NCBI GenBank assembly: GCA_000702085.1
Contig: JNKP01000007.1
Location: forward strand, 1-64,000
Direction of reading: 5' to 3'
DNA: 64,000 bases
From: Lachnospiraceae bacterium P6A3
GTDB taxonomy: Bacteria > Bacillota > Clostridia > Lachnospirales > Lachnospiraceae
Made by a program: the position numbers and the translations under genes. The notes beneath the pieces were generated by a model. That model searched no databases. It saw only the letters and a list, made by a program, of their open reading frames with translations, and was not told the DNA's origin. Of the stretch, positions 1,783 through 16,244 are shown piece by piece. The stretch's first letter is position 1, and every line of letters begins with the position of its first letter.

Positions 1783-2633
1783 CCGTTTTGAAGAAAAGGA
1801 AAGGCACAGAAACAACACGCCTTATCACGGAAAGAAATGTTCCGAGAATAAGTTACACAGCTCTGGAAAAATATCCCTGGCTTATCAACGCCTTCTCAAC
1901 AAGAGAAGGCGGGGTAAGCACCGGTATTTATTCGAGCATGAATCTTACTTTTACCAGAGGCGATGACCCGGAGAAGGTAAGAGAAAATTTCAGAATCTTC
2001 GGAGAAAGTATCGGTGTAAGTATAGAGCAAATGGTTTATTCCGATCAGCAGCATACCACAAATGTGATGGAGGTCACCTCTAAACATCACGGTATGGGAA
2101 TTCTTCGTGACAGAGACTTTTCGGATATAGACGGAATTATGACAGGCGAACCCGGAGTATGCCTGGTTACATCCTATGCGGATTGTGTTCCTCTTTATTT
2201 TGTGGATCCTGTTAACCGTGCCATAGCTGCATCACATTCCGGATGGAGAGGGACAGTAGGAAACATCTGCCAAAGTACCGTCAGTGAAATGAATCACCTG
2301 TACGGAAGTAAACCGGAAGATATCATTGCATGCATCGGGCCTTCCATATGCGCGGACTGTTATGAAGTTGGAAGCGATGTAGCGGATGAATTTACAAAAG
2401 CTTACGGTGAAGAATCCGGAACAGTGGTTCTTCCTCATAAAGAAAATATCCCGGGTAAGTATCAGCTTGATCTTACCCGGGCTAATGTCATAAATATGGA
2501 AAAGGCTGGAATACTGCCTGAGCACATCTCCGTGCCGGATCTTTGTACCTGCTGTAACAGCGACGTGCTTCATTCACACAGAGGATCTCACGGTCAGCGC
2601 GGAGGACTTTGTGCATTCCTGATGATCAAATAA
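1779..2633 (+). CDS. pgeF: Peptidoglycan editing factor PgeF (laccase-domain, YlmD/YfiH family)
   Basis: The 284-residue protein matches the Cu-oxidase_4/YfiH family throughout. The three expected metal ligands are visible as His92, Cys136 (in SYADCVPLYF) and His153 (in ASHSGWRGT). The CIGPSICADCYEV segment and the C-terminal HSHRGSHGQRGG are also typical. Family members have polyphenol-oxidase-like or purine-nucleoside activity and keep wrong residues out of peptidoglycan stems. The start overlaps the preceding stop codon, with GGGAGGA just upstream. A strong terminator follows at once. Confidence 0.93.
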   Translation: MTVLKKRKGTETTRLITERNVPRISYTALEKYPWLINAFSTREGGVSTGIYSSMNLTFTRGDDPEKVRENFRIFGESIGVSIEQMVYSDQQHTTNVMEVTSKHHGMGILRDRDFSDIDGIMTGEPGVCLVTSYADCVPLYFVDPVNRAIAASHSGWRGTVGNICQSTVSEMNHLYGSKPEDIIACIGPSICADCYEVGSDVADEFTKAYGEESGTVVLPHKENIPGKYQLDLTRANVINMEKAGILPEHISVPDLCTCCNSDVLHSHRGSHGQRGGLCAFLMIK

Positions 2634-2666
2634 GCCGGCGGGGTTAATCCCCACCGGCTTTCTTTT
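2633..2666. terminator. Rho-independent terminator shared by convergent genes
   Basis: AGCCGG-C-GGGG pairs with CCCC-A-CCGGCT around a TTAAT loop, followed by a T-rich run on the plus strand. It ends the pgeF operon and lies against the 3' end of the convergent CPBP protease gene, so it may serve both directions. Confidence 0.85.
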
Positions 2667-3522
2667 ATTCATATCTTGTTTCAAGCAGTTTTCCAACATG
2701 CTTTGTTCCGAAAAACATTTCTTTATTTGTGACAACAATCCAGGCTGCCACTGCGATTACTACAATCGTTTCTACACATTTTGTCTCGGGAGTCATTGCA
2801 ATCTTTTCCTGCATGAAATTTACGAACAGATGATAGATCATACATGCGAGTATAGATCTGTCGCTTGCCAGGTATACCCATGTGATGATGAAGCCGAGAG
2901 GTATTCCGCTGATGAAGAAGTTTACTACATACAGAGGGTTAACCATAAGTCCTGCCTGGTAGGTTCCCTTGATGAAAATAAGGGGAAGATGCCAGCAAGA
3001 CCACAATGCTCCGAAAATCATCGATTCCCAAAACCAGTTCATGTATGCGCCGATGGAATCTTCGCAATATCCCTTCCATCCCACTTCCTCTATGATGGAT
3101 GCAACGGTAACGGTAAGGAATGCTCCTGCGATTCCTATTCCTGTAAAAGAGAAATCTTCCGTAAAAGAAAACTGACTGAGGGACTGACCGAAAGCAAGGG
3201 AGAGCAGAATGGTTGCTACGATGATACCCGCAAACTGAACTATTGCTATAAGTACATTTTTCCATTTTACTTTATATAGTCCGATGAGCTTGATCTTGAG
3301 ATCTTTTTTCAGAAGATCGTTTCCGGATACAAGAACAAACACGGTGGAAACCGCTGCAGGTGCCAAGAGCCCTATGAGCATAAGCACTGCGGCGAGATTT
3401 CCTTCCAGGAAAGTTGCGGGGATCCAGAAAATCCAAGTGAAGAAATATGCCATCGCAAAAAACAGTACGGGTCTGTATTTGTAAGGTTTGTTTTCGGCTT
3501 TTGCCTTTTCATTTATACTCAT
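2665..3522 (-). CDS. CPBP-family intramembrane metalloprotease
   Basis: This 285-residue polytopic protein has about eight hydrophobic segments and the CPBP (CAAX protease/bacteriocin-processing) signature motifs. The first is EEVGWKG at about residue 143, where the usual arginine is replaced by lysine. The second is WSCWHLP and the third HLFVN (HxxxN). Family members cleave within membranes and are often linked to bacteriocin self-immunity or processing. The gene ends beside the shared terminator and starts three bases after the upstream MFS gene's stop, so it is in an operon with the MFS transporter and TetR regulator. The substrate is unknown. Confidence 0.85.
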   Translation of the reverse strand: MSINEKAKAENKPYKYRPVLFFAMAYFFTWIFWIPATFLEGNLAAVLMLIGLLAPAAVSTVFVLVSGNDLLKKDLKIKLIGLYKVKWKNVLIAIVQFAGIIVATILLSLAFGQSLSQFSFTEDFSFTGIGIAGAFLTVTVASIIEEVGWKGYCEDSIGAYMNWFWESMIFGALWSCWHLPLIFIKGTYQAGLMVNPLYVVNFFISGIPLGFIITWVYLASDRSILACMIYHLFVNFMQEKIAMTPETKCVETIVVIAVAAWIVVTNKEMFFGTKHVGKLLETRYE

Positions 3523-3525
3523 GTG

Positions 3526-4767
3526 TTAATACTCCGTTTTATCTGTTTCAAGTTTTCTTATGCTTCCGGACAATAAGATAAGTGTTGATGTTGCTGCAAG
3601 TAACAGGCCCGCAATAATGACCACCATAGCAGATCCTCTTCCCACCCCTCGTCCGGTCAGTTTTCCGAGAGCATCTGCTGCGGTTCCTGACACCGCATAA
3701 GCGACAACATATCCCAGCTGTGAGATGAATCCGATCATTCCCCATGCTCTTCCCTGAGCATCTGTGGGGATATTTGTCCGGATCAGATAATCAAGACAGT
3801 TATTTGCTGCGGGAAGCGCCGCAAAGAACATAAATCCGAATATGCATATCGGAATGATGTTTTCAAAAAGACCGAAGCCCGACATGAAAAGTCCCGATGC
3901 GCAAAGTGAAAGACCGAGCATTTGCACAAACCGTTTCTTTATTCCTTTAATTCCCAGGATCAGGCTGCTCACCAGCATTCCGCATGCACAGATTGTTTCC
4001 GCAATGCCTAGTGTTTTGGCATCCTTAAAAGAAAGTATCAGCGGTTCCGCAAGAATCTGGAACATTCCCATGAATAGTGTGATCACAGATGATATGATCA
4101 CCAGAATGATGACACCGCGCTTTTTGCACAGAACCTGCCATCCGGATTTTATGCTTACAAGAAGCGGCTCTTTCTTTTCCGTCATGCGGGCACCGATACC
4201 GCGTCTTACAACTCCCGCGCTTATTACCGTTAATACGAAGGTGCAGATATCGATCACAAGCAGAAGCCTTATATCACTTACGGTAAGAAGTAATCCCGCT
4301 ATAACGGGTGAAAAAAGATATCTTGCAGATCCTGCCATGGATACGAGGCCGCTGGCTTTCGAATATTCATCCGCGGAAAGAAGATCGGTGATGGTTGCTT
4401 TGAATGAAGGCTCCAGAAGTGCGGAGAAGATTGCGCTGATCGAAACACCGATGCATATTTGAACGAGACTTGCTCCGCCGCTCATCATACACAGAAGGAT
4501 ATACAGGACTCCCAGCGCAGAACACCCGTCACCTATCATCATAAGAAGCCTTCTGTCGAATCTGTCCGCAAGAGCTCCCGCGGGAACCGAAAGCAGAAGA
4601 GTGGGAAAAAATCCGAGCAGTGTTATGATCGCCATGCTTGCCGCACTTCCGGTTTGATCGAAGATGTAAACTCCCAAACCGAAGCTTGTAAGTCCTCCGC
4701 CTATGGATGATATAAGTTCACCGGACCAAAGAAGCAGAAATTTTCCGAAGTTTCCTTTTTTGTTCAT
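3526..4767 (-). CDS. MFS efflux transporter
   Basis: The 413-residue protein has about twelve transmembrane segments. It carries the MFS loop 2-3 signature as GALADRFDRRLLM and the related AWGMIGFISQLG segment in the second half, like EntS/macrolide-efflux type MFS_3 proteins. It probably exports a drug or metabolite by proton antiport. Its start overlaps the stop of the TetR gene by four bases, and a TetR repressor next to an MFS exporter usually means the regulator senses the exported compound. The substrate cannot be read from sequence. Confidence 0.88.
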   Translation of the reverse strand: MNKKGNFGKFLLLWSGELISSIGGGLTSFGLGVYIFDQTGSAASMAIITLLGFFPTLLLSVPAGALADRFDRRLLMMIGDGCSALGVLYILLCMMSGGASLVQICIGVSISAIFSALLEPSFKATITDLLSADEYSKASGLVSMAGSARYLFSPVIAGLLLTVSDIRLLLVIDICTFVLTVISAGVVRRGIGARMTEKKEPLLVSIKSGWQVLCKKRGVIILVIISSVITLFMGMFQILAEPLILSFKDAKTLGIAETICACGMLVSSLILGIKGIKKRFVQMLGLSLCASGLFMSGFGLFENIIPICIFGFMFFAALPAANNCLDYLIRTNIPTDAQGRAWGMIGFISQLGYVVAYAVSGTAADALGKLTGRGVGRGSAMVVIIAGLLLAATSTLILLSGSIRKLETDKTEY

Positions 4768-5393
4768 TTCTTCTTCCCTTTTTTATCGGCGGGCGTTTTT
4801 GGGGGATTAATCAGCTGTCTGATAAAGCCCATGGAATTCGCCGCAGCTCCGAGAAGCTTTTCCATAATGTCGATGAAGACGTCTATATCCTTGTCCGTGA
4901 AATTGTCTTCATCGAATATCTCGTTGCTTAATACGAGCATCATCTTTACACGTTCGGGGATGTTATCGCAGGAAAAGATTCCCTGTTCCACACCTTCTTC
5001 CACAACTTTTGACAAAAGAGGAATAACTTTCTCAACAAGTCTTTGTTTGACCTTCTGATGCATGATGATGTTCTCGGGCTGCATGAGAGCGCCTTCTATC
5101 GAATGCTCTTCCGGTGCGGGCCTTAAGGAGGCAATGATGCCTATGATCTTTTGCGGTATGGGAATGGGAGACTCCAAAACCGACGTGGCTGCCTCTATCT
5201 CCTTGTCAATCATCATTCCTATCACTTCTTCAAGAGTCTGTTCCTTACTCTCGAAATAGTAATAATAGGTTCCTTTTGCGATTCCTGCCTCGGCGATGAT
5301 GTCATCTACACTTGTATTCTCATATCCTTTAGATACGAACATCTTATATGCGATATCGAGGAGTTCCAGTTTTCTTCTTTCACCTTTTCTCAT
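4764..5393 (-). CDS. TetR/AcrR-family repressor
   Basis: From MRKGERRKL the protein is 209 residues. Its N-terminal helix-turn-helix (about 8-55, with SVDDIIAEAGIAKGTYYYYF) is typical of TetR. The ligand-binding C-terminal half is divergent, and the tail is lysine-rich. I chose the start at 5393 because AAAGGAA lies just upstream; a longer reading to 5420 has no ribosome site. The promoter lies between two operator-like dyads, so it is almost certainly autorepressed. It should control itself, the MFS transporter and the CPBP protease. Confidence 0.9.
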   Translation of the reverse strand: MRKGERRKLELLDIAYKMFVSKGYENTSVDDIIAEAGIAKGTYYYYFESKEQTLEEVIGMMIDKEIEAATSVLESPIPIPQKIIGIIASLRPAPEEHSIEGALMQPENIIMHQKVKQRLVEKVIPLLSKVVEEGVEQGIFSCDNIPERVKMMLVLSNEIFDEDNFTDKDIDVFIDIMEKLLGAAANSMGFIRQLINPPKTPADKKGKKK

Positions 5394-5422
5394 ATGAATT
5401 CCTTTCCCGGGGAAAAACATTT

Positions 5423-5493
5423 TCGACCATCGGTCGATTTTAGTATAAAATCAGGTTTGAGCCTTGTCAAGGCATTTTTCGACTCTTAGTCGG
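5423..5493 (-). promoter_or_regulatory. TetR promoter flanked by two operator dyads
   Basis: On the minus strand, TTGACA (5470-5465) and TATACT (5447-5442) are separated by exactly 17 bases, a near-consensus promoter. Just downstream of the -10 lies TCGACC-ATC-GGTCGA (5423-5437), and just upstream of the -35 lies TCGACT-CTT-AGTCGG (5479-5493). Paired dyads bracketing the promoter are what an autorepressing TetR protein needs. Confidence 0.8.
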
Positions 5494-5589
5494 TTTACGC
5501 GAAAATGCTCAATTGTCACAGCATTTAAGGGGTGTTAAAATAATATACGGAGCAAAAAACTCCGAATTCGGGGGAGATTTTTATATCTG

Positions 5590-6093
5590 ATGAAAAAAAG
5601 TACTGAAGAGAAAACCAATGTCCAGCGTCTTCTGGATCAGAAGAAGATAGAGTATATCTATCACAGCTATGCGGATACTCCGTCAACGAACGGAGTAGAG
5701 ATAGCAAGGCTTCTGGGTGAGGACGAAGCCAAGGTTTTCAAGACTCTTGTGACTGTCGGAAAAACCGGTGAGCATTATGTGTTTATGGTACCTGTTGCCG
5801 AGGAGCTGGATCTGAAGAAAGCAGCCAAAGCATCCGGTGAAAAATCCATAGACATGATATCCCAGAAAGAGCTTCTGCCACTTACGGGGTATGTACACGG
5901 AGGCTGTTCACCCATCGGTATGAAGAAGCTGTTCAAGACATTCATACACGAGAGCGCAGAGAACTTCGACAGGATCATCTTTTCTGCCGGCAAGATCGGC
6001 TATCAGGTTGAATTGCCCCTGGAGAGTTTACGAAAAGTCGTACCGGTCAGATCCGCGGACCTGACAGTAACTGATGTTAATGAGAATGCATGA
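5590..6093 (+). CDS. ybaK: YbaK/EbsC-type Cys-tRNA(Pro) deacylase
   Basis: This 167-residue protein matches the YbaK/ProX editing family over its full length. It has the KVFKTLVTVGKTGEHYVFMVP core, a conserved lysine-rich helix and the VHGGCSPIGMKK motif. Such proteins hydrolyse cysteine mischarged on tRNA-Pro in the cytosol. A GGGGGAG ribosome site lies about ten bases before the start. It overlaps or abuts the CPCC gene that follows, suggesting a small operon up to the phosphoesterase. Confidence 0.93.
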   Translation: MKKSTEEKTNVQRLLDQKKIEYIYHSYADTPSTNGVEIARLLGEDEAKVFKTLVTVGKTGEHYVFMVPVAEELDLKKAAKASGEKSIDMISQKELLPLTGYVHGGCSPIGMKKLFKTFIHESAENFDRIIFSAGKIGYQVELPLESLRKVVPVRSADLTVTDVNENA

Positions 6094-6110
6094 TATCGGA
6101 AGGAAATGGT

Positions 6111-6398
6111 ATGAGCAGTGAATTCAAAATGATGAGCTATGGCAAGATCAAGTATCAGTGCCCTTGTTGCGGTTGTTTTACCTATGACAACAAGCCCAGC
6201 GGAGACTTTTCAATATGTCCCGTATGCTTCTGGGAGGACGACCCGGTTCAGCTCGAAGATGAAACTTTCAAAGGCGGAGCAAATGATGTCTGCCTTTTAG
6301 AGGCAAGAGAGAATTACAAGAAATACGGCGCCTGCGAAGAGAGATTTATACGAAACGTCAGAAAGCCGCTGGAAGAGGAACTTGATGAGGCGGACTAA
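6111..6398 (+). CDS. CPCC-family cysteine-rich protein
   Basis: About 95 residues with the CPCC-domain pattern YQCPCCGCFTYD followed by SICPVCFWEDDPVQ and an acidic, aromatic tail. Two CxxC pairs suggest a zinc-binding fold. Functions are not established; CPCC proteins are often found near polymorphic-toxin and immunity-type genes. I chose ATG 6111 because GGAAGGAA lies directly upstream; the in-frame ATG at 6090 overlaps ybaK's stop and lacks a site. The next gene encodes a membrane-anchored protein with a nuclease-like tail, and a toxin-immunity relation is conceivable but unproven. Confidence 0.85.
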   Translation: MSSEFKMMSYGKIKYQCPCCGCFTYDNKPSGDFSICPVCFWEDDPVQLEDETFKGGANDVCLLEARENYKKYGACEERFIRNVRKPLEEELDEAD

Positions 6399-6873
6399 CA
6401 TGATGAGCAGGAAAATGCGTATTTTCTGCAGGATATTTCTGGGAGTGATCGTCTGCTTTCTGTCTTTTACGGCAACGTTCTATTCTTCCATAAGAGAGAT
6501 GCGCAGGAATCATGAACAGGCCCTGGCACAGGGGACTGTACTGCCCGCTGTGACGGCGGGAACTGATCAGTCCGGAGATGAAGTACTTCCGGAGGAGCAG
6601 CAGACCAGGTATTGTTTCAGGACCGAAGCACTGCTTAATGATCATTATGAGAAACATGGTATGGATATGGGCTTTGCCTCAGCGTACGAATATGAGCTTG
6701 CCGCATCCGCTGTTGTAAATAATCCGAATGCCCTTCATAAAACAGACATGGTTGACGGATATGAAATGTATTTCGTCACAGGTACCAATGAATATGTAGA
6801 GGTTTCGACCGACGGATATATCAGAGAATACTTTATTCCCGAGGACGGACTGGAGTTTTACGACAGACAATAA
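6385..6873 (+). CDS. Membrane-anchored protein with BECR-nuclease-like C-terminal domain
   Basis: The roughly 162-residue protein has one N-terminal hydrophobic segment, a low-complexity linker, and a C-terminal domain of about 85 residues. That domain runs LLNDHYEKHGMDMGF, then NNPNALHK, then TNEYVEVSTDGYIREYF and ends YDRQ. The HYxKHG, TNE[FY]V and DGxIRxYFxP elements resemble phage and polymorphic-toxin nucleases of the Barnase/EndoU/ColicinE5-RelE (BECR) fold. It is clearly paralogous to the gene at 42914. The start overlaps the CPCC gene by a few codons; ATG 6385 has AGAGGA upstream, and ATG 6400 is an alternative. Activity is unknown. Confidence 0.7.
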   Translation: MRRTNMMSRKMRIFCRIFLGVIVCFLSFTATFYSSIREMRRNHEQALAQGTVLPAVTAGTDQSGDEVLPEEQQTRYCFRTEALLNDHYEKHGMDMGFASAYEYELAASAVVNNPNALHKTDMVDGYEMYFVTGTNEYVEVSTDGYIREYFIPEDGLEFYDRQ

Positions 6874-7709
6874 TGCATTTGAAATTTAGTAAAAAGACAG
6901 TAAAAAGAATATGGTTTCCGGCATTGGTTTTTCTCTTTATAGTGTGGACGGTACTGACCTGGCACCCCGTTACGGAGAGGATGACGATAGATCTGCCGGA
7001 AGAAATTGAAGGAGGAGTGAGGATCGTTCTCGTAACAGATCTTCATTCCTGTTTTTACGGTAAGGGACAAAATAAGCTTATCTCAATGATCGATGAGGAA
7101 AGCCCGGATATCGTAATTCTTGGCGGTGATATATTCGATGATAAGCTTGATGATGATAACGCAAAGATCCTTTTGGAAGATCTGGTTGGAAAATATCCCT
7201 GCTTTTATGTTACGGGAAATCACGAATACTGGAGCGGAAGAGTTCCGGAGATGAAAGCTTATCTCGAAAGTATCGGTGTGAGCGTTCTTGAGGGCGAGTG
7301 TGAGACCATAGAGATAGGCGGTAATCTCATCGATGTCTGCGGCATCGACGACCCGACACAGATGTTCAGAAGCGATTGGATAGCCCAGCTTCAGGCGGCT
7401 TATGATGCATCCAGCGAGGAGCATGTCAGACTGCTTGTAACCCATCGCCCGGAAGAGGCGGAAGAGTATGCAAAATACGACTTTGATCTGATCATGGCAG
7501 GTCATGCCCATGCGGGCCAGATCAGGCTGCCTTTTGTAAACAAAGGAATATATGCGCCCAATCAGGGCTTTATGGCCGAATATATAAACGGAAGATATGA
7601 TCTGTCTAACGGAAGTATCATGGTGGTAAGCAGAGGTCTCGCAAGGGAGAGTACTCCCGCACCCAGATATTTCAATCATCCCGAGATTGTAGTCATTGAT
7701 CTCATATAA
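6873..7709 (+). CDS. Membrane-bound metallophosphoesterase (YkuE-like)
   Basis: The 278-residue protein starts with a hydrophobic anchor (about 11-30). It then has all calcineurin-type metal motifs in order: TDLHSC, GGDIFDD, GNHEYW, VTHRP and AGHAHAGQ. The family hydrolyses phosphomonoesters or lipid-linked pyrophosphates at the membrane face using two metal ions. The ATG shares its first base with the preceding stop, so translation is coupled to the BECR-like gene. It is the last gene of the ybaK group. Confidence 0.9.
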   Translation: MHLKFSKKTVKRIWFPALVFLFIVWTVLTWHPVTERMTIDLPEEIEGGVRIVLVTDLHSCFYGKGQNKLISMIDEESPDIVILGGDIFDDKLDDDNAKILLEDLVGKYPCFYVTGNHEYWSGRVPEMKAYLESIGVSVLEGECETIEIGGNLIDVCGIDDPTQMFRSDWIAQLQAAYDASSEEHVRLLVTHRPEEAEEYAKYDFDLIMAGHAHAGQIRLPFVNKGIYAPNQGFMAEYINGRYDLSNGSIMVVSRGLARESTPAPRYFNHPEIVVIDLI

Positions 7710-7845: not shown

Positions 7846-8652
7846 ATGAAAAAGAAAGAAACCGTCTATCCGGAGTATGTACAGGCATATGTTCCGGATA
7901 CGGAGGATCTGGCCATACTCGTAGCCAGAGCAAAAGGCCCCGAAAGAAGCATGGCGGAGTTCTCAAGAGCCTGTAAAGTTAAAGGCCCTTCCACATTTTC
8001 ACGTATAGTAAATGAAAAGATCGATAAGCCTGTATCGGATAAGCTTCTGTATGCCATTGCAGAAAATGCGGCTGATAAGCAGGAAGTTACCCTTGATATG
8101 CTCATGAGAGCAAACGGTAAGGTTCCCAAGGATGAGGTTACGGGCGGCATTCCGGATAACGACAAAAGGAAAGCATATAAGACTCAGACTGAAAAAATAA
8201 AAGCGGTAAAGGATATAATCGTTCAAAGCTTTCTGGATAAGGGCGAATACGTCATGCTGTATCCGGATCTGAAGCTGTCGGAAATGATACCCGCAAGCGA
8301 ACATGCATTGTCTTATCCTTCGGATTTCTCAGTTCACATCCAGGGAAAGGAACCACTGGTTTGGAACTTTATCGTAGATCTGACAGACATGCATACTGTT
8401 TCGTTAAAGGCCAAGGCGGATAATAAAAAACATCTCAGTGAATCCATGAGAAGATTTGCTCCGCTGTTTTTGCGCGATGCCTGGGAGCAGGAAACTCTAA
8501 AGGATTTTGAAAACACCTTCGTATTCATCGAAGAAAAAGCCTTTAAGGTTTTCACCGAGATGATGAAGGGCGTGAAGACTAATACAAAGATGTCGGTGAT
8601 GCTGGTGGATGTGGAGAAGAAGACAGTATCAGATAAAGAGATCATAAAGTGA
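7846..8652 (+). CDS. Putative HTH regulator paired with PD-(D/E)XK nuclease
   Basis: The 268-residue protein has an N-terminal Cro/XRE-like region (about 28-95) with MAEFSRACKVKGPSTFSRI, a charged linker, and an uncharacterised C-terminal domain (about 120-260) containing WNFIVDLTDMH. The C-terminal part may sense a ligand or partner. It has a TAGGAGA site, and its stop lies 14 bases before the nuclease start, so the two are co-transcribed. It is the best local candidate for the protein that binds the TTGCAT/ATGCAA sites. DNA binding is inferred from the helix pattern only. Confidence 0.65.
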   Translation: MKKKETVYPEYVQAYVPDTEDLAILVARAKGPERSMAEFSRACKVKGPSTFSRIVNEKIDKPVSDKLLYAIAENAADKQEVTLDMLMRANGKVPKDEVTGGIPDNDKRKAYKTQTEKIKAVKDIIVQSFLDKGEYVMLYPDLKLSEMIPASEHALSYPSDFSVHIQGKEPLVWNFIVDLTDMHTVSLKAKADNKKHLSESMRRFAPLFLRDAWEQETLKDFENTFVFIEEKAFKVFTEMMKGVKTNTKMSVMLVDVEKKTVSDKEIIK

Positions 8653-8666
8653 CTATGGGAGGGATT

Positions 8667-10589
8667 ATGAACGATAAAAAATGGGATTTATCCGAAGATG
8701 CCAAAAATTTACTTTGGAAGATTGCTTATGATAAAAAAAGCGATGACTTCAATGTTTTTTCAGTACTGAAGAATGCTAACCATGAAATCAGACATTCCAG
8801 CTTTTTGGCGTGGCTGTTTGATAAAGATGAAGACCATGGCTTCGGAAAAGAATTTGCCATCAGCTTTTTTTCGCGTGCGACCAAGGGTTCATTTGATTAT
8901 AAGTTTTTCAATAATGAAGTAAAGAAAGACAAAGCGTATTGGGATGCGAAATTTGATGAATCATATTCCGTATATACGGAATATCCGGTTCCGTATTTTG
9001 ATAAGGGAAAAACAAAAACAACCAATAAAAGAATAGATATACTGATTGTCGGTGAAACGTTTACATGTACTATAGAGAACAAGTACGGTTCGTCCGTTCA
9101 CGATGATCAGCTTCAAAGATATAAGGAATTTGTAGAAAACAGGAAATTCACAGACAAAAAAGAGCATTTCTTTATTTTTCTTGATATACCTGAAGATGTA
9201 CATGATTTTGAAACCCGGGTGGAAGCTGAATACGAAAAATCAGCAAGTAAAGACGAAGATAAAAAAAAGAATATTATTTCACCTTCCAAAGAATATGACG
9301 GCTATACTTATATAAGCTATAAGGACATACTGGATATATTAAGCAGGTGCTTGGATAAAAGAAGGGGCGGATATGAAAAGCAGGATGATTTTATAAGAAA
9401 ATATATTCAGACAGTAAATTCTAATGTCAGATATGAAGATACTCCTGATGAATTATGTAATATAATACTTAATTCAAAGTCTCTGGAGGAACTGTACGCT
9501 TTTTACAACATGAGGTATACAAAAGATTCAGCGGAAAAAGAATGCTGGGATAATCTAAATCCTAAGTATCAGGATGCACTGAACACCATAATGAATAGGA
9601 TTAACAGTGTACAGAGAAACAACGACAGACGTGTAGAAAAAGTTCTTAAGGAACATCTGGTCCGTGAAGAGATCATAAAAGAAGATGCCAAAAAGAAGGA
9701 TAAAGTAGTAGGATATCATTTTGGCAGGAAATCCAGTTCCGAGCCCTATGCGTGGAGACTGTTGACCGGCAAAAAAATCAACTATATCAGACAGGTGGAT
9801 TATACGACAAAATTTGCCGGATATGATATCAGATTTTACTTCGGATTGGATGCCGGTACGTCTCTTAATTTGATCAAATTGATTGATAAAAAACGGGAAA
9901 TAATTGATAAATTAAATGAATTGCTAAGCGATAAAGAGAAGTACAAATGGACTGTGTCTCTTAAGTATTGTGTTTATGATGAATCGGCATATCATTTATT
10001 AACTGAATTTGATGACGAGGCACCGTCGATTTCGGGTAAAAATGCAATTTGTGGTTTACAGAAAATTTTAAATACTGATTATTCCAACCGTATAGGAAAA
10101 ATCAGGGAAAATGAAATCCTGGAAAGTTGCGAACTTGCCCCGGATATAAAAATGCTGCTTATTGATATTTATGGCGAGGATGAAACGGTTTTCATACAAT
10201 CAGCCATTAAAAGGTATTTGACCGAAAAGGAAATAACCGAAGAAGAATATGCCAAAAAACTCGAAGAATATAATCTACAGATGGCATTAAACGAGAGTAT
10301 CGTGAAAAGGTATCAGGATATATACGGGGATAGTGGAGATAATAAGAAGTATAAGCAATTTGATTCCGATTATATAGAAAAGCATAAACCACATAGATAC
10401 CCTGCTGTAGTTATTCGCTGGGCTCTTGATATCTCCTGCGTATTAAATGAAAACCCCGTTATTACGGAAGAGGATTTTAAAGCGGTATTTGAGTCGGAGA
10501 GTAATCTGGCAAATATATATCGAGAACAGACCAATAGAATATTTGATATATTCGGAACAAAATTAGCGGCAATTCAGCCTGATAAATAG
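8667..10589 (+). CDS. PD-(D/E)XK nuclease superfamily protein (PDDEXK_4-like)
   Basis: The protein is 640 residues from the ATG preceded by GGGAGGG; a GTG at 8649 overlaps the previous gene but is less likely. The N-terminal third carries RHSSFLAWLFD, then the nuclease core: a conserved acidic residue near Glu105, Asp124 in KRIDILI, Glu137-x-Lys139 in TIENKYG, and a QLQRY helix. This matches PDDEXK_4 proteins, often seen in defence and mobile islands. The C-terminal 400 residues are charged and helical with no recognised domain. The codons look more AT-rich than those of the flanking genes, consistent with transfer. A tight terminator follows. Confidence 0.85.
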   Translation: MNDKKWDLSEDAKNLLWKIAYDKKSDDFNVFSVLKNANHEIRHSSFLAWLFDKDEDHGFGKEFAISFFSRATKGSFDYKFFNNEVKKDKAYWDAKFDESYSVYTEYPVPYFDKGKTKTTNKRIDILIVGETFTCTIENKYGSSVHDDQLQRYKEFVENRKFTDKKEHFFIFLDIPEDVHDFETRVEAEYEKSASKDEDKKKNIISPSKEYDGYTYISYKDILDILSRCLDKRRGGYEKQDDFIRKYIQTVNSNVRYEDTPDELCNIILNSKSLEELYAFYNMRYTKDSAEKECWDNLNPKYQDALNTIMNRINSVQRNNDRRVEKVLKEHLVREEIIKEDAKKKDKVVGYHFGRKSSSEPYAWRLLTGKKINYIRQVDYTTKFAGYDIRFYFGLDAGTSLNLIKLIDKKREIIDKLNELLSDKEKYKWTVSLKYCVYDESAYHLLTEFDDEAPSISGKNAICGLQKILNTDYSNRIGKIRENEILESCELAPDIKMLLIDIYGEDETVFIQSAIKRYLTEKEITEEEYAKKLEEYNLQMALNESIVKRYQDIYGDSGDNKKYKQFDSDYIEKHKPHRYPAVVIRWALDISCVLNENPVITEEDFKAVFESESNLANIYREQTNRIFDIFGTKLAAIQPDK

Positions 10590-10609
10590 CCGGATCATTA
10601 TACTTATTT

Positions 10610-10640
10610 TGGGATAAGCGAAAGCTTATCCCATTTTTTT
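10610..10640 (+). terminator. Terminator of the HTH-nuclease pair
   Basis: TGGGATAAGC and GCTTATCCCA form a perfect ten-pair stem closed by a GAAA tetraloop, followed by seven T residues. Confidence 0.95.
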
Positions 10641-10660
10641 GAAATTTTTTCAAAAAACCC

Positions 10661-10690
10661 TTTACAAACCCTGCCCAAATTTGATATTAT
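10661..10690 (+). promoter_or_regulatory. Promoter of the ClpP/AAA+ operon
   Basis: TTTACA (10661-10666) and TATTAT (10685-10690), 18 bases apart, fit a sigma-A promoter. Transcription should start near 10697, leaving a leader of roughly 150 bases that contains operator site B. No other strong promoter was seen in the 10641-10845 gap. Confidence 0.6.
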
Positions 10691-10709
10691 GCCAACACGT
10701 TAAAAAGCG

Positions 10710-10725
10710 TTGCATCGCGATGCAA
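10710..10725. promoter_or_regulatory. Operator-like site B (perfect 16-base palindrome)
   Basis: TTGCATCGCGATGCAA is a perfect palindrome about a dozen bases downstream of the predicted transcription start, a position suited to repression. Related sites lie at 7781 and 11604. Confidence 0.75.
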
Positions 10726-10845
10726 TATTTTGAGATATGAAATTTGCCCTTATTATGCGCTCCTTGACAACCGAATATAGAATCCTCATCAGCTGCTCGG
10801 CCTGAATTTAAGATTTTTAAAACTATTTTCGAGGAGGTGATAAAA

Positions 10846-11580
10846 ATGAACAAAGGATACGCACAGTGTTTGATCTGTGAACTGTTTTTTAATTGCGAAA
10901 AAGACGGGGTTCTTCTTATCCCCGGTTTGGATGTGATCGCTACACGCGGAAAAGAACAGGACTCGGGAAGGATCCTAAGATGTGAAATTGACCTTGATGA
11001 AGATGAAACATGCAACGCGGTAGATGAGTTCGGAGATCTCTATGAAGCATTATTTGAGATTGCAGACTGGTATTCAAATTCCGAAGAGCAGTACGGTGTG
11101 AAGCCTGATGAAGAATTTATGGCAAATCCGGAAAGCATGCGTGTATGGGAAAAATATATAAACGGCTATAAGGAATTTGATGTATCTTCCGAAGGAATCG
11201 CCGAATACTGCGGACTGAAAAATATCACGGGCCCTGTAAAGGAACTTTTAGTCCTGGTGATCAATCATTTCTGCGGATTACTGGTTTCTTATGATGATGA
11301 AAACATCCTTGATGTGGCACTTCGAAGATTGGCAGAGATATTCTTTTTAAACAGGTTTGCCAAACGGATTGAAAGAATCGATATGCTTATGGATGAACGC
11401 ATGGAAAAATCCATTTTTCCGGAATATATCGATCTTACAATTGATGATTTCAGAAGAATCGCCTCATATCTCAGCGATGAATTTAATATCATGACCCGGA
11501 AAGCCCGGATTTTCTACGATCATTCCAGGACCGATGAAGATGTATGCCGTTTGTATTCCGACGTCCTTAATATGGACTAG
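10846..11580 (+). CDS. Unknown protein, short paralogue of the ClpP-operon pair
   Basis: I recognise no known domain in this 244-residue acidic protein. From start to end it is related to the first 230 residues of the next gene product: both have a [LV]PGxD segment near residue 30, EYGVKP or EFGVKP near 85, and ERIDxLMDER then FPExxDL and FRRIAxYL in the C-terminal third. A mostly helical fold is likely. ATG 10846 follows GAGGAGGTGA; the in-frame GTG inside that site is rejected. It is the first gene of the ClpP/AAA+ operon and could be a substrate adaptor or receptor. Confidence 0.75.
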   Translation: MNKGYAQCLICELFFNCEKDGVLLIPGLDVIATRGKEQDSGRILRCEIDLDEDETCNAVDEFGDLYEALFEIADWYSNSEEQYGVKPDEEFMANPESMRVWEKYINGYKEFDVSSEGIAEYCGLKNITGPVKELLVLVINHFCGLLVSYDDENILDVALRRLAEIFFLNRFAKRIERIDMLMDERMEKSIFPEYIDLTIDDFRRIASYLSDEFNIMTRKARIFYDHSRTDEDVCRLYSDVLNMD

Positions 11581-11603
11581 GATATATTTTTTTCAAAGCA
11601 CCA

Positions 11604-11619
11604 TTGCATGCAAATGCAA
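11604..11619. promoter_or_regulatory. Operator-like site C (TTGCAT-GCAA-ATGCAA)
   Basis: The same two half-sites as site B in the same arrangement, with GCAA in place of CGCG, lie in the 80-base gap between the two paralogous genes. This may be an internal promoter control point or a secondary repressor site. Confidence 0.65.
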
Positions 11620-11660
11620 CGCATAGTAATAAAGCGCAATACCGCTACAAGGAGAAGATT

Positions 11661-13028
11661 ATGGATAGAAAATACCTCGACAGAGAATTTTATGAACTGC
11701 TCATCATGGATATGCACTGTCTCCGCGATAAGAACAGTGTTGTTATGGTTCCCGGTTTTGATCAGGCAATTTCTGCCGGGGAGATCATGGATACGGGACG
11801 TATTGTCAGGATCGTTCTTGGTTTTGAACCGCTAATGACTCAGAAGATTGCAGATGAGTTTGCTTCTCTTGCAAGCTACCTTTACGAAATAGGACAGTGG
11901 TATCACATCACCGGATCCGAATTCGGCGTAAAACCCGTTAAATCCGCTCTCAAAGAACCCGGAGCAATGGATGTGTGGTCCAAGTACATATCGGACTACA
12001 AGGGATTTGATTCTCCCCGTAAAGGAATTAAAGGCAGCACTCCCGACCTGCTTGCATTTATGTGTTACAGGTACTGCAAGTATGAAGCAATAGGAGCTCC
12101 CGAGATGATTCTGCTTAATGCAGCCAGGGAACTTTCCTATGCATATATCATCAACGGCTATTCCATAAAAGCCGAGAGAATCGATCTTCTTATGGACGAA
12201 AGGGATTCAAGATCTTATTTCCCCGAGAAGAAAGACCTTGATCTCGACGAATTCCGCAGGATAGCAAATTACCTGGAAGATCCGGAGAATATCACAACCG
12301 CTAAAGCAGCTGAATTCCATCAGCGTTCGGAAAGTGACGAAGATACGGAAAACCTTTACAGGGAATATATCGAAACAAGATCACAGGATCTTCCGTATTT
12401 TTACATGGATGCTCTTCAGCTTAAATACGGATTCGGAGAATATGATTCCATAAATGAAAAGGAAATCGCCGAAGATTTCAGTGATCTTTATAAGGTCACC
12501 ATAACCGAGGAGCTGGTAAAGGGAATCCTTGATGATGCTCTTTATATGATCCGGCACGAGCCTGAACCCTTTGATGAGATAAGCGTAAAAGAAAAATTGC
12601 CTGAAGGCCTTCCCGGAAACCTCAAAGGTAAAGATCTTAGCTGGGACATGATCTCCAGAAAAATCTACTCATATACGGAAGAAGGCGAAATGGATGAGTA
12701 TCTGTCCGAAACCTTCGGGGACGCGGATTACGTGACAGTTCCCGATATGGAAAGTATTTACTACACATATTCTCCGAGATGGACTGATATTGCAGGGTTA
12801 GATACCGTTCTGACCAATGTCAACGTTCAGGATTATCGCGGGATGGCCGAATTTATTCTGGAGAAACTCGACAAAATGGGAGTCTGCATCGTGAATAAAT
12901 TCTTCCGTCATGACAAGATAAAGCCTTCGGATATATACGATTACTCTTATCTTGATCCCGGTCTTGCAATGAAAATAATCCGCGACAATCCTCTTAAGCT
13001 TATGGAAAAGATCAACGCATCACACTGA
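11661..13028 (+). CDS. Unknown protein, long paralogue with C-terminal extension
   Basis: The protein is 455 residues from the ATG preceded by AAGGAGA; an upstream TTG at 11604 lies inside operator site C and is rejected. Residues 1 to about 235 are paralogous to the preceding gene product, including MVPGFD, EFGVKP, KAERIDLLMDER and FRRIANYL. The remaining 220 residues are unique to this copy, acidic and helix-rich, and have no motif I know. Thirty bases or fewer separate it from clpP, so the two are translated from one message. Duplication followed by domain gain is the simplest history. Confidence 0.75.
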   Translation: MDRKYLDREFYELLIMDMHCLRDKNSVVMVPGFDQAISAGEIMDTGRIVRIVLGFEPLMTQKIADEFASLASYLYEIGQWYHITGSEFGVKPVKSALKEPGAMDVWSKYISDYKGFDSPRKGIKGSTPDLLAFMCYRYCKYEAIGAPEMILLNAARELSYAYIINGYSIKAERIDLLMDERDSRSYFPEKKDLDLDEFRRIANYLEDPENITTAKAAEFHQRSESDEDTENLYREYIETRSQDLPYFYMDALQLKYGFGEYDSINEKEIAEDFSDLYKVTITEELVKGILDDALYMIRHEPEPFDEISVKEKLPEGLPGNLKGKDLSWDMISRKIYSYTEEGEMDEYLSETFGDADYVTVPDMESIYYTYSPRWTDIAGLDTVLTNVNVQDYRGMAEFILEKLDKMGVCIVNKFFRHDKIKPSDIYDYSYLDPGLAMKIIRDNPLKLMEKINASH

Positions 13029-13051
13029 TTTCGATATGAAAGGAGGACATT

Positions 13052-13636
13052 ATGAATTTTTACATTCCTACCGTCATTGACTCCAACGGAAAATATGAAA
13101 GAGCTTATGACATTTATTCAAGACTCCTTAAGGAGAGAATAGTTTTCCTTTCCGGGGAGGTTAATGAAGAAACCGCAACTTCCGTCGTAGCCCAGCTTCT
13201 TTATCTTGAATCACAGGATTCCGGTAAGGATATAAGCCTGTACATCAACTCTCCGGGAGGCTCTGTATCTGCAGGTATGGCAATCTACGATACCATGCAT
13301 TACCTGAAGTGTGATGTGTCCACAATCTGCGTCGGAATGGCTGCCAGCATGGGTGCATTTCTTCTTGCCGGAGGTACAAAGGGAAAGAGATTCGCACTTC
13401 CCAATTCCGAGATCATGATCCATCAGCCTCTGGGAGCAAGCTCGGGACAGGCATCGGACCTTCAGATAGCCGCAGAGCATATTCTCCATACCAAAGAAAA
13501 ATTAAACAGGATCCTGGCCGAAAACTGCGGAAAAGAAGTTTCCAGAATTTCCGCAGACTCTGACAGAAATAACTGGATGAGTGCCGAGGAAGCGCTCGGA
13601 TACGGACTGATCGATAAAATGATCGAGTCCAGGTAA
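13052..13636 (+). CDS. clpP: ClpP-family peptidase with Asn in place of the catalytic Asp
   Basis: The 194-residue protein aligns with ClpP end to end, including [23 protein letters not shown] and LYINSPGGS. The nucleophile Ser99 (GMAASMGAF) and His124 (MIHQPLG) are present. The third triad position, an Asp in the DRDNFMS motif of housekeeping ClpP, is Asn173 here (SDRNNWMS). Listeria ClpP1 has the same Asp-to-Asn change and is active mainly when mixed with another ClpP. There is no obvious propeptide. AAAGGAGG precedes the start, and the AAA+ gene begins 14 bases after the stop, so it very likely works with that ATPase in the cytosol. Confidence 0.93.
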
Positions 13637-13650
13637 GAAAGGAGAAGAAT

Positions 13651-15771
13651 ATGATATATAAAGCATTCCGCCTTGAGATGAACAAATCCCTCGAAAAGAA
13701 AAATGTATTGGATGAGCTCCCTGACGATATTCTCGATATCGAACCCGGATTCGGGATGCCTCACTTCCGGTCAAATAAGCAGGATTCAGCTCGCAGAAAC
13801 GATGAAGACAATCTGTACTCAAGATATTCCGACTCATCCCTTGAAAGTATTAATGAAGATTTCTATAAAGAATATCTCAGACACGAAAAGTATGTCTGCG
13901 TTGTAACCGGACGCGGCGAAAAAGATATCGATATTCTTGTCGCGTACACTCTTTTGAATCGTGAGAGCAAGGATCCCGAAACGGATATAATACAGAAATT
14001 TCCCGATTGCCACATAGTTTCATCAAGAGAGATTACCTGTGAAGAATTCCGTAATGATATGGAAAACAGAAGGTATGTTTCCAACGGACGTACTCTTCTG
14101 GGTAAGCTCGGCATTGCGTATAAAGCAGGTTTCTTCGATCCATATCCTTTTGAACTTGAAGAATGTGTTCTCGGTTTTTCCAAAACCACCAAAGCACAGT
14201 GCAAGAAAAGAGCACGTGAGATACTGGCTTCGAACAGCCTTATGGAAGAAATCGACCGTATTTATTCCAAAGAGAATCTTAAAAGCTATGCGGGCCATCC
14301 CGTGCATTACATGATCTCCGCGGGAGACTTGAGAGCTGCTTTGGATATGGAAGAAATACTTATCAGGGCACTTGATTCCAACGGAAGACTTCCTTCCTGC
14401 AGACAGATGATCATGAAGAATATTTCCAGAACTGCATACAGGGATGATCGGTTCAAGCAGGTTCTTGAATCCGCGGAAGGCGGTATCATGATGATCGTTC
14501 TTGATCAGAAACCTGATTTCGGAAGATTTGCCACGGACTTTCACGATGTTACCAAGGTCATCGGAGAGATGGTAAACAAACTCAAAAAGGATACTCTTTT
14601 TATCTTTGTTGAGATCATGGGGGAATCTCTCAGAAACGACGATGCACTTGCCAATATCACATCCAAGGCGGACATTATCCGGATTGTGGAGGGAAGCGGC
14701 GACAAAGAATGTGCTCAGAAGTATCTGAAGGAGCTTACTTCCAAAGTAGAGTTTCATGTAGACGATCCCGATGAAGTATTTAATTACCTTCCAATGCAGG
14801 AATGCTTTACCGTCAGTGATATATTTTCTGCCTACAATTCCTGGTACGGAAGCGGCCTGAAAAATCATGTCTATAAAGCATACAAAGATCAGAAAAAATA
14901 TGAAATAAAAGTTACCAAGACTGCGAACAAGCCTTATGACGAACTTAAGTCACTGATAGGTATAACCGAAGCAAAGCGTGTAGTAGACGATATAATCGCC
15001 GCAGGTAAGCTGATGAAAGCAAGAGAGAGAATGGGGCTTAATACGGAAGGTAATTCTCTTCACATGCTTTTTGCAGGCAATCCCGGAAGCTGTAAGACAA
15101 CCGTGGCAAGGCTTATCGCACAGATCCTCAAGGAAGAAGAAGTCGTAACGTCGGGAGCTTTTATCGAGTGCGGCAGACAGGACCTGGTGGGCAAGTACGT
15201 GGGCTGGACCGCAAAAATCGTTGAAGACAAGTTCAGGGCCGCAAGCGGCGGTGTTCTTTTTATCGACGAGGCATATTCCCTTGTGGAGGACGGAAGAACA
15301 TACGGTGCAGAGGCCATCAACGTCATTACCCAGCTTATGGAAAACTACCGTGATTCCGTCATAGTGATCTTTGCCGGATATACGGAGAAGATGAAAGAGT
15401 TTCTTGATCAGAACGAAGGGTTAAAGAGCCGTATTTCTTTCCATCTGAATTTTCCCGATTACACTTCGGATGAACTTACGGATATTCTCAGACTCATGTC
15501 TTCGAAAAGAGAATACATGATTGAAGACGATGCGTATGAATATTGTCATGAAATATTCGATAACGCCGTTACAGAAGAAAACTACGGAAACGGAAGATAT
15601 GTCCGTAATCTCCTGGAACAGGCCATTATCAGGCAGTCATCCAGGATCATGGCAGAATCAGCGGGTAAAGAACTGTCCAAGGAAGAAATCTGCATCCTGA
15701 AAAAAGAAGACTTCCGCGAGCTTTCATGCATTGATGGAAAGCTCCCCTCCGTAATTGGATTTACCGTATAA
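13651..15771 (+). CDS. CbxX/SpoVK-type AAA+ ATPase, putative ClpP unfoldase
   Basis: The 706-residue protein has a long N-terminal region (1 to about 425) and one typical CbxX/SpoVK AAA+ module (about 435-690). Walker A is GNPGSCKTT (476-484, Cys where Gly is usual). The pore-loop-like YVGW is at 516-519 and Walker B LFIDEAYSL includes Asp539-Glu540. LKSRISF supplies the arginine finger. Residues of about 225-330 look like a degenerate first AAA domain. The C-terminus ends VIGFTV, placing an IGF tripeptide, the ClpP-docking signature of ClpX/ClpA, at 702-704. AAGAAAGGAGAAG precedes the start. Unfoldase function is inferred. Confidence 0.88.
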   Translation: MIYKAFRLEMNKSLEKKNVLDELPDDILDIEPGFGMPHFRSNKQDSARRNDEDNLYSRYSDSSLESINEDFYKEYLRHEKYVCVVTGRGEKDIDILVAYTLLNRESKDPETDIIQKFPDCHIVSSREITCEEFRNDMENRRYVSNGRTLLGKLGIAYKAGFFDPYPFELEECVLGFSKTTKAQCKKRAREILASNSLMEEIDRIYSKENLKSYAGHPVHYMISAGDLRAALDMEEILIRALDSNGRLPSCRQMIMKNISRTAYRDDRFKQVLESAEGGIMMIVLDQKPDFGRFATDFHDVTKVIGEMVNKLKKDTLFIFVEIMGESLRNDDALANITSKADIIRIVEGSGDKECAQKYLKELTSKVEFHVDDPDEVFNYLPMQECFTVSDIFSAYNSWYGSGLKNHVYKAYKDQKKYEIKVTKTANKPYDELKSLIGITEAKRVVDDIIAAGKLMKARERMGLNTEGNSLHMLFAGNPGSCKTTVARLIAQILKEEEVVTSGAFIECGRQDLVGKYVGWTAKIVEDKFRAASGGVLFIDEAYSLVEDGRTYGAEAINVITQLMENYRDSVIVIFAGYTEKMKEFLDQNEGLKSRISFHLNFPDYTSDELTDILRLMSSKREYMIEDDAYEYCHEIFDNAVTEENYGNGRYVRNLLEQAIIRQSSRIMAESAGKELSKEEICILKKEDFRELSCIDGKLPSVIGFTV

Positions 15772-15803: not shown

Positions 15804-16244
15804 ATGAAAAAAAAGGAACTGACCAGACCTTCACAGTTTTTAAGTAATAATCTGTGGGAACTTTATACATTTATTTCCAATCTTGAGAATAGTTATATTT
15901 TCAGCAGCGATGTGCCCGGAAAGCCCGGAGAATCACTCTATTACGTCGAAGGCATGAGTCTTACGGAACTTGATACCGTGTATGCACATTATTCTATCGG
16001 TGATCTTCCCGAATATAAGACGGAATTGCTTACATTGAGGCTCATAAATGCAGAATCGGGACAGGTGAACAAATATACCCGCGAACTGGAGACGGATGCC
16101 TGGAACGAAAGGGAGCTGCCTGTTGAAAAGGTGCTTGAAAAATACGGACTCAGAATACCGAAAAGGGAAGAACTGGACAAATGGTTCTTTTACGGAGCCT
16201 ACCCCGTGGGTCCCCACAGGCTCCCGTATACTAAAAATTTTTAA
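15804..16244 (+). CDS. Small unknown protein, last gene of ClpP/AAA+ operon
   Basis: A 146-residue hydrophilic protein with no domain I recognise. It begins MKKKELTRPSQFLSNNLWEL, has no signal peptide or membrane segment, and ends in an aromatic, proline-rich tail (YGAYPVGPHRLPYTKNF). An AGAAAGGAGAT site precedes the start, 32 bases after the ATPase stop, so it is most likely in the same message. It could be an adaptor or regulator of the protease complex. No clear terminator follows. Confidence 0.7.
   Translation: MKKKELTRPSQFLSNNLWELYTFISNLENSYIFSSDVPGKPGESLYYVEGMSLTELDTVYAHYSIGDLPEYKTELLTLRLINAESGQVNKYTRELETDAWNERELPVEKVLEKYGLRIPKREELDKWFFYGAYPVGPHRLPYTKNF

Follow-up and report, generated by a model that had tools for sequence, protein, structure and literature searches.

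An AAA+ protein encoded next to a clpP gene in Lachnospiraceae bacterium P6A3 ends with the tripeptide IGF and two further residues. A large, little-studied family keeps this ending almost unchanged, and the ending is therefore probably the mark of a new mode of joining an unfoldase to ClpP. Sequence comparisons make it likely that the tail is a flexible C-terminal ClpP-docking peptide on a CbbX/SpoVK-like unfoldase. The locus lies in a stretch of 64,000 bp of contig JNKP01000007.1, termed here the window, and displays the following features:

10837 to 11580, + strand: protein of unknown fold, 247 amino acids, no Pfam match, homologue in genome G010; first gene of a probable operon
11604 to 13028, + strand: protein of unknown fold, no Pfam match, 474 amino acids from TTG or 456 from the ATG at 11658
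13052 to 13636, + strand: ClpP, 194 amino acids, Ser-His-Asn triad, docking-cleft residues kept (PF00574, 4.6e-83)
13651 to 15771, + strand: CbbX/SpoVK-like AAA+ protein, 706 amino acids (Pfam, NCBIfam, structural match, motifs)
15748 to 15771, + strand: C-terminal tail S-V-I-G-F-T-V-stop of the AAA+ protein, with I702-G703-F704 (sequence, invariance of Gly and Phe, pLDDT)
15804 to 16244, + strand: 146-amino-acid protein, function unknown, 32 bp downstream of the AAA gene; possibly the last operon gene

The arrangement suggests an operon from 10837 to 15771 or to 16244 that encodes two related proteins, ClpP, the AAA+ protein and perhaps the 146-residue protein. Upstream of 10837, a T run accompanies a terminator-like hairpin (10610-10633) and a promoter-like site is present at 10661-10690, but since the promoter scan gave no excess over shuffled sequences, gene spacing is the main ground for the operon. 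The clpP gene ends 15 bp upstream of the AAA gene on the same strand, which bears out the preliminary description of a neighbouring ClpP gene. The product of 11604-13028 is 36% identical to that of 10837-11580, the two being paralogous in the N-terminal half. Relatives of this longer protein are present beside clpP-AAA in G010, where it corresponds to two open reading frames, and, with weak similarity, next to a tailed double-AAA protein in G012. G008 and G023 have weak relatives of the 15804-16244 product close to tailed AAA genes. At 8649-10589 the window also encodes a PD-(D/E)XK nuclease-like protein that matches the PADLOC candidate defence family PDC-S26.

Only two domains of the AAA+ protein score above Pfam cut-offs, AAA (5.3e-15, 56.5 bits, cut-off 21.2) followed by AAA_lid_6 (6.8e-16, 58.5 bits, cut-off 24.3); a Clp/Hsp100-type small domain and a ClpX zinc domain are absent. 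The active module formed by these domains spans residues ~430-690 and has a Walker A motif, GNPGSCKT, at residues 476-483 (window 15076-15099), a KYVG pore loop at 515 and a Walker B motif ending DE at 539-540. The Walker A motif carries Cys before the Lys, a position occupied by Ala in 35 of 37 members of the clade around the window gene. By sequence, the solved relatives are CbbX and EccA1, with an E value of 2e-51 against CbbX in the PDB. NCBIfam scores for SpoVK, CbbX and EccA (261, 228 and 198 bits) are far below the equivalog cut-offs (423, 459 and 467), and assignment as a true SpoVK, CbbX or EccA was rejected. Identity with PADLOC IetA was also rejected, as the matches are weak and confined to the AAA core.

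With eight sequences, AlphaFold gave a model of mean pLDDT 67 that is good in the active module and poor at the N-terminus. CbbX is the best structural match of the module (Z 25.9), followed by PAN, p97, HslU (Z about 17.5), FtsH and Rpt subunits. Alignments with several two-ring AAA proteins also cover the N-terminal half, but with an rmsd near 21 Å; for this reason, and because the model has low confidence there, residues ~168-410 are only tentatively regarded as a degenerate AAA-like region without Walker A.

The lid ends at about residue 690 and a flexible tail follows, residues 692-706 having pLDDT values below 50, as expected of disorder. The codons at 15748-15771 read S700, V701, I702, G703, F704, T705, V706 and stop, so the protein does end VIGFTV as had been described, with F704 third from the C-terminus. 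The terminal IGF is the sole conserved motif of its kind, since internal hGF/hGL matches such as VLGF at 173-176 are not shared among relatives. ClpX, ClpA and ClpC bind ClpP by an [LIV]-G-[FL] tripeptide on a flexible internal loop, and the ClpX of the same genome has the usual internal RLDRKAIGFNTE; no conserved internal motif of this type was found in the window AAA+ protein. The earlier analogy with proteasome activators holds for position, as the motif is on a C-terminal tail, but not for sequence: the last three residues are F-T-V rather than hydrophobic-Tyr/Phe-X (HbYX), and an HbYX-type tail was therefore rejected.

Conservation of the tail is pronounced. Among the 37 members of the clade, Gly and Phe are present in all and Ile in 32, while the commonest letter reaches at most 0.43 in every one of the ten columns upstream, where the linker is variable and Lys/Arg-rich. 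G703 and F704 are among the invariant columns of alignment A1 (11 sequences), and are invariant as well in alignment A2, in which identity to the window protein is 24-33%. AAA genes were surveyed as 170 clusters at 85% identity. An [ILVMFY]GF sequence within the last ten residues occurs in 52 of these clusters and in 12 of 1,699 non-AAA open reading frames of at least 150 amino acids (0.7%). A chance origin of the tail was rejected because of this rarity and the invariance within the clade.

The tail is present in 56 of the 170 clusters, as IGF (44), LGF (6), YGF (3), MGF, FGF and VGF (one each), and the dominant IGF matches the ClpX motif. The 114 clusters counted as tailless are mostly short proteins of SpoVK, CbbX or single-AAA type, 27 being longer than 550 residues; none of the SpoVK- and CbbX-type proteins examined has the IGF tail. 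On the tree the tail needs seven changes, three of which are forced by well-supported branches. Zero to four residues follow the motif in 51 of the 56 tailed clusters. Some tails end in AV, TA, LA or CA, small hydrophobic endings that are loosely ssrA-like, and the C-terminus might thus mark the AAA protein, as a degron, for degradation by ClpXP or ClpCP. ssrA-type degrons, however, depend on the last residues, and here the sequence after Phe varies or is missing altogether, with hGF as the very end in 12 of 56 clusters, whereas Gly-Phe is invariant; a degron is highly improbable.

An invariant tail might also be a structural clasp, with IGF packed on the neighbouring AAA subunit to control hexamer assembly or ATPase activity and with no role in binding a protease. 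In free HslU the tail packs in a cleft to the neighbouring subunit before it swings out to HslV, and since the HslU tail does both, clasp and docking roles can coexist (PMC4106860). Many genes with no linked clpP keep the tail, as a clasp would have it, but the variable, basic linker and the predicted disorder point to a free arm. Moreover, neither the close match to a ClpP-binding tripeptide nor the presence of the tail in all clpP-linked relatives is predicted by a clasp, which is considered unlikely.

Docking on ClpP is in keeping with the properties of the neighbouring protease, whose CLP_protease domain scores 278 bits. Its triad is not Ser-His-Asp, as Asn replaces the catalytic Asp (DSDRNNWM); among the ClpPs aligned, Ser-His-Asn is found only in those of the window and G010. 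The genome encodes four ClpPs: the housekeeping enzyme between tig and clpX, the window ClpP, which is 68% identical to it, and two located beside ATPases. In the alignment, the window ClpP matches housekeeping ClpPs at nearly all docking-cleft sites, taken as the positions known from ClpP-ADEP structures, and the cleft deviates in the two other ClpPs of the genome. These two (G000:C4:139392-139913 and G000:C1:365448-365984, loci L018 and L016) are each followed by an ATPase that, judged by eye, resembles conjugation coupling proteins. Elsewhere, divergent ClpPs are found ~5 kb from tailed AAA genes at L056 and L057.

Listeria ClpP1 also has a Ser-His-Asn triad and is active only in complex with ClpP2 (PMC5361862; PMC12900304). 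A mixed barrel is plausible here for that reason, and by analogy the window ClpP may need the housekeeping ClpP as partner. In the Listeria mixed barrel ClpX seems not to be bound via the ClpP1 ring (PMC5361862; PMC12900304); the tail described here might dock on either ring.

The linkage of tail and clpP was assessed at loci fetched by AAA similarity, not by ClpP, some of the non-adjacent loci having short flanks. Six AAA genes have a same-strand clpP within 700 bp, and all of them carry the tail, compared with 43 of 141 AAA clusters without adjacent clpP (Fisher p = 0.0011, a guide only, as the genes are related and uncorrected kinship makes p overstate the case). This comparison of homologues with and without clpP, which had been proposed as a check, leaves docking unrefuted. 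The six tails are VIGFTV in the window, VMGFTA in G010, AIGFV and DYGFAV on one contig of G008, SYGF followed by 13 residues in G023, and RIGF at the very end in L162, a contig from a viral collection, where AAA and ClpP are separated by a 155-residue gene. Both gene orders occur among the pairs, and linkage requires five changes on the tree, at least four being forced by well-supported branches.

Two of these loci have further features. In G008:C83 (L051), two different AAA-ClpP pairs are located ~6 kb apart, at 1959-4470 and 10539-13165. The L162 cluster of AAA, the intervening gene and ClpP (3762-6933) adjoins integrase-like and tryptophan synthase-like genes and is probably an island at an attachment site. 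ClpP-first searches for further linked pairs returned almost only housekeeping clpP, and no AAA gene adjoins the one partial ClpP obtained from G768.

The tie of the tail to the neighbouring clpP that the preliminary description implied does not hold as put forward. Of 49 tailed genes with flanks, 43 have no adjoining clpP; the IGF tail characterises the AAA subfamily and is conserved to the same degree away from clpP genes. The tail as a mark of clpP linkage was thus rejected, and clpP adjacency is supportive but not defining. A paralogue in the same genome (G000:C2:179200-181293; L015 6201-8294) has RVIGF as its last residues, and no clpP lies less than 6 kb away. This gene sits in an island with a DUF2779 nuclease and a WYL regulator, and neighbours of these types recur around tailed AAA genes, also on Selenomonas and Lachnospira plasmids.

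It may be asked whether the tail docks a different conserved partner, the ClpP neighbourhood being incidental, since many tailed genes are in islands with WYL regulators, DUF2779 nucleases, metallo-beta-lactamase-fold proteins and metallophosphoesterases rather than ClpP. No single neighbour goes with the tail across subfamilies, however, and the repeated origins of ClpP adjacency are in this sample confined to tailed members; such a partner appears quite unlikely. Some observations do weigh against ClpP docking. One subfamily, which includes two clpP-linked members, has YGF, outside the described [LIV]-G-[FL] set; in one of these two members the motif is followed by 13 residues; CbbX itself has no such tail; and most tailed genes are without an adjoining clpP. 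A tail kept invariant for another reason, such as neighbour-subunit packing or another partner, would give the same picture. Apart from the tie to the neighbouring gene, the proposal of tail-type docking is favoured by the exact motif, its invariance, its placement after the lid, the disorder of the tail, the pore loop, the HslU/PAN-like fold, the ClpP cleft and the tails of all linked relatives.

By the proposed docking mechanism, the AAA+ protein would assemble as a hexamer and its KYVG loop would draw substrates through the pore. CbbX takes in substrate at its top surface, with the helical subdomain at the bottom (PMC5385338); on this geometry the tails would leave the lid domain on the exit face. 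There they would bind the hydrophobic clefts between ClpP subunits, as ClpX docks by IGF loops in ClpP clefts (PMC12383707) and HslV is docked by the C-terminal tail of HslU (PMC4106860). The IGF tail would then take the role of the ClpX/ClpA/ClpC internal loops from the position of the HslU/PAN tails. The partner in most genomes would be the housekeeping ClpP; at the window, the dedicated co-encoded ClpP would work in a mixed barrel with it, as its Ser-His-Asn triad suggests.

With less confidence, the balance tips slightly towards a broader proposal: that a large uncharacterised group of CbbX/SpoVK-like AAA+ proteins in Bacillota forms a further class of ClpP unfoldases with C-terminal IGF docking, most of them sharing the housekeeping ClpP and some repeatedly gaining a dedicated one. 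If true, tail-type docking would add a different AAA lineage to the partners of ClpP, provide a simple sequence rule for finding such partners and offer a natural peptide for the ClpP ADEP site. A family whose annotation goes no further than 'AAA family ATPase' could then be given candidate functions in regulated proteolysis, which would probably take place in mobile or defence-like islands. The AAA core family is already known; no instance of IGF used as a C-terminal tail came up in the literature searched. Nor was any report of ClpP with CbbX, SpoVK or IGF tails found in that literature, which covers a minority of subscription papers. To our knowledge, the ClpP partners described to date dock by an internal loop.

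Several known systems share parts of this design. Listeria ClpP1, like the window ClpP, is a second ClpP with a Ser-His-Asn triad beside a housekeeping ClpP, but the window ClpP is co-encoded with its own AAA protein, and its activity and hetero-assembly are putative. SpoVK, CbbX and EccA are closest to the window AAA protein in sequence and structure; the window protein differs in its extra N-terminal region, in falling short of the NCBIfam cut-offs and, relative to the SpoVK/CbbX-type members examined, in its IGF tail. PAN, Rpt and Mpa have a similar AAA fold and a flexible C-terminal tail as docking element, but theirs is of HbYX type and serves the 20S protease, whereas the presumed protease here is ClpP. 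HslU likewise has a similar fold and docks HslV by a C-terminal tail that has an aromatic residue close to its terminus, but HslV is a different protease and HslU is without IGF. ClpX, ClpA and ClpC share with the window protein an IGF-class tripeptide on a flexible element, an AAA+ module with an aromatic pore loop and, presumably, a ClpP partner with a conserved hydrophobic cleft; they differ in that their motif is on an internal loop, whereas that of the window protein is at the extreme C-terminus, after the lid of an AAA module of the CbbX/SpoVK group (AAA_lid_6).
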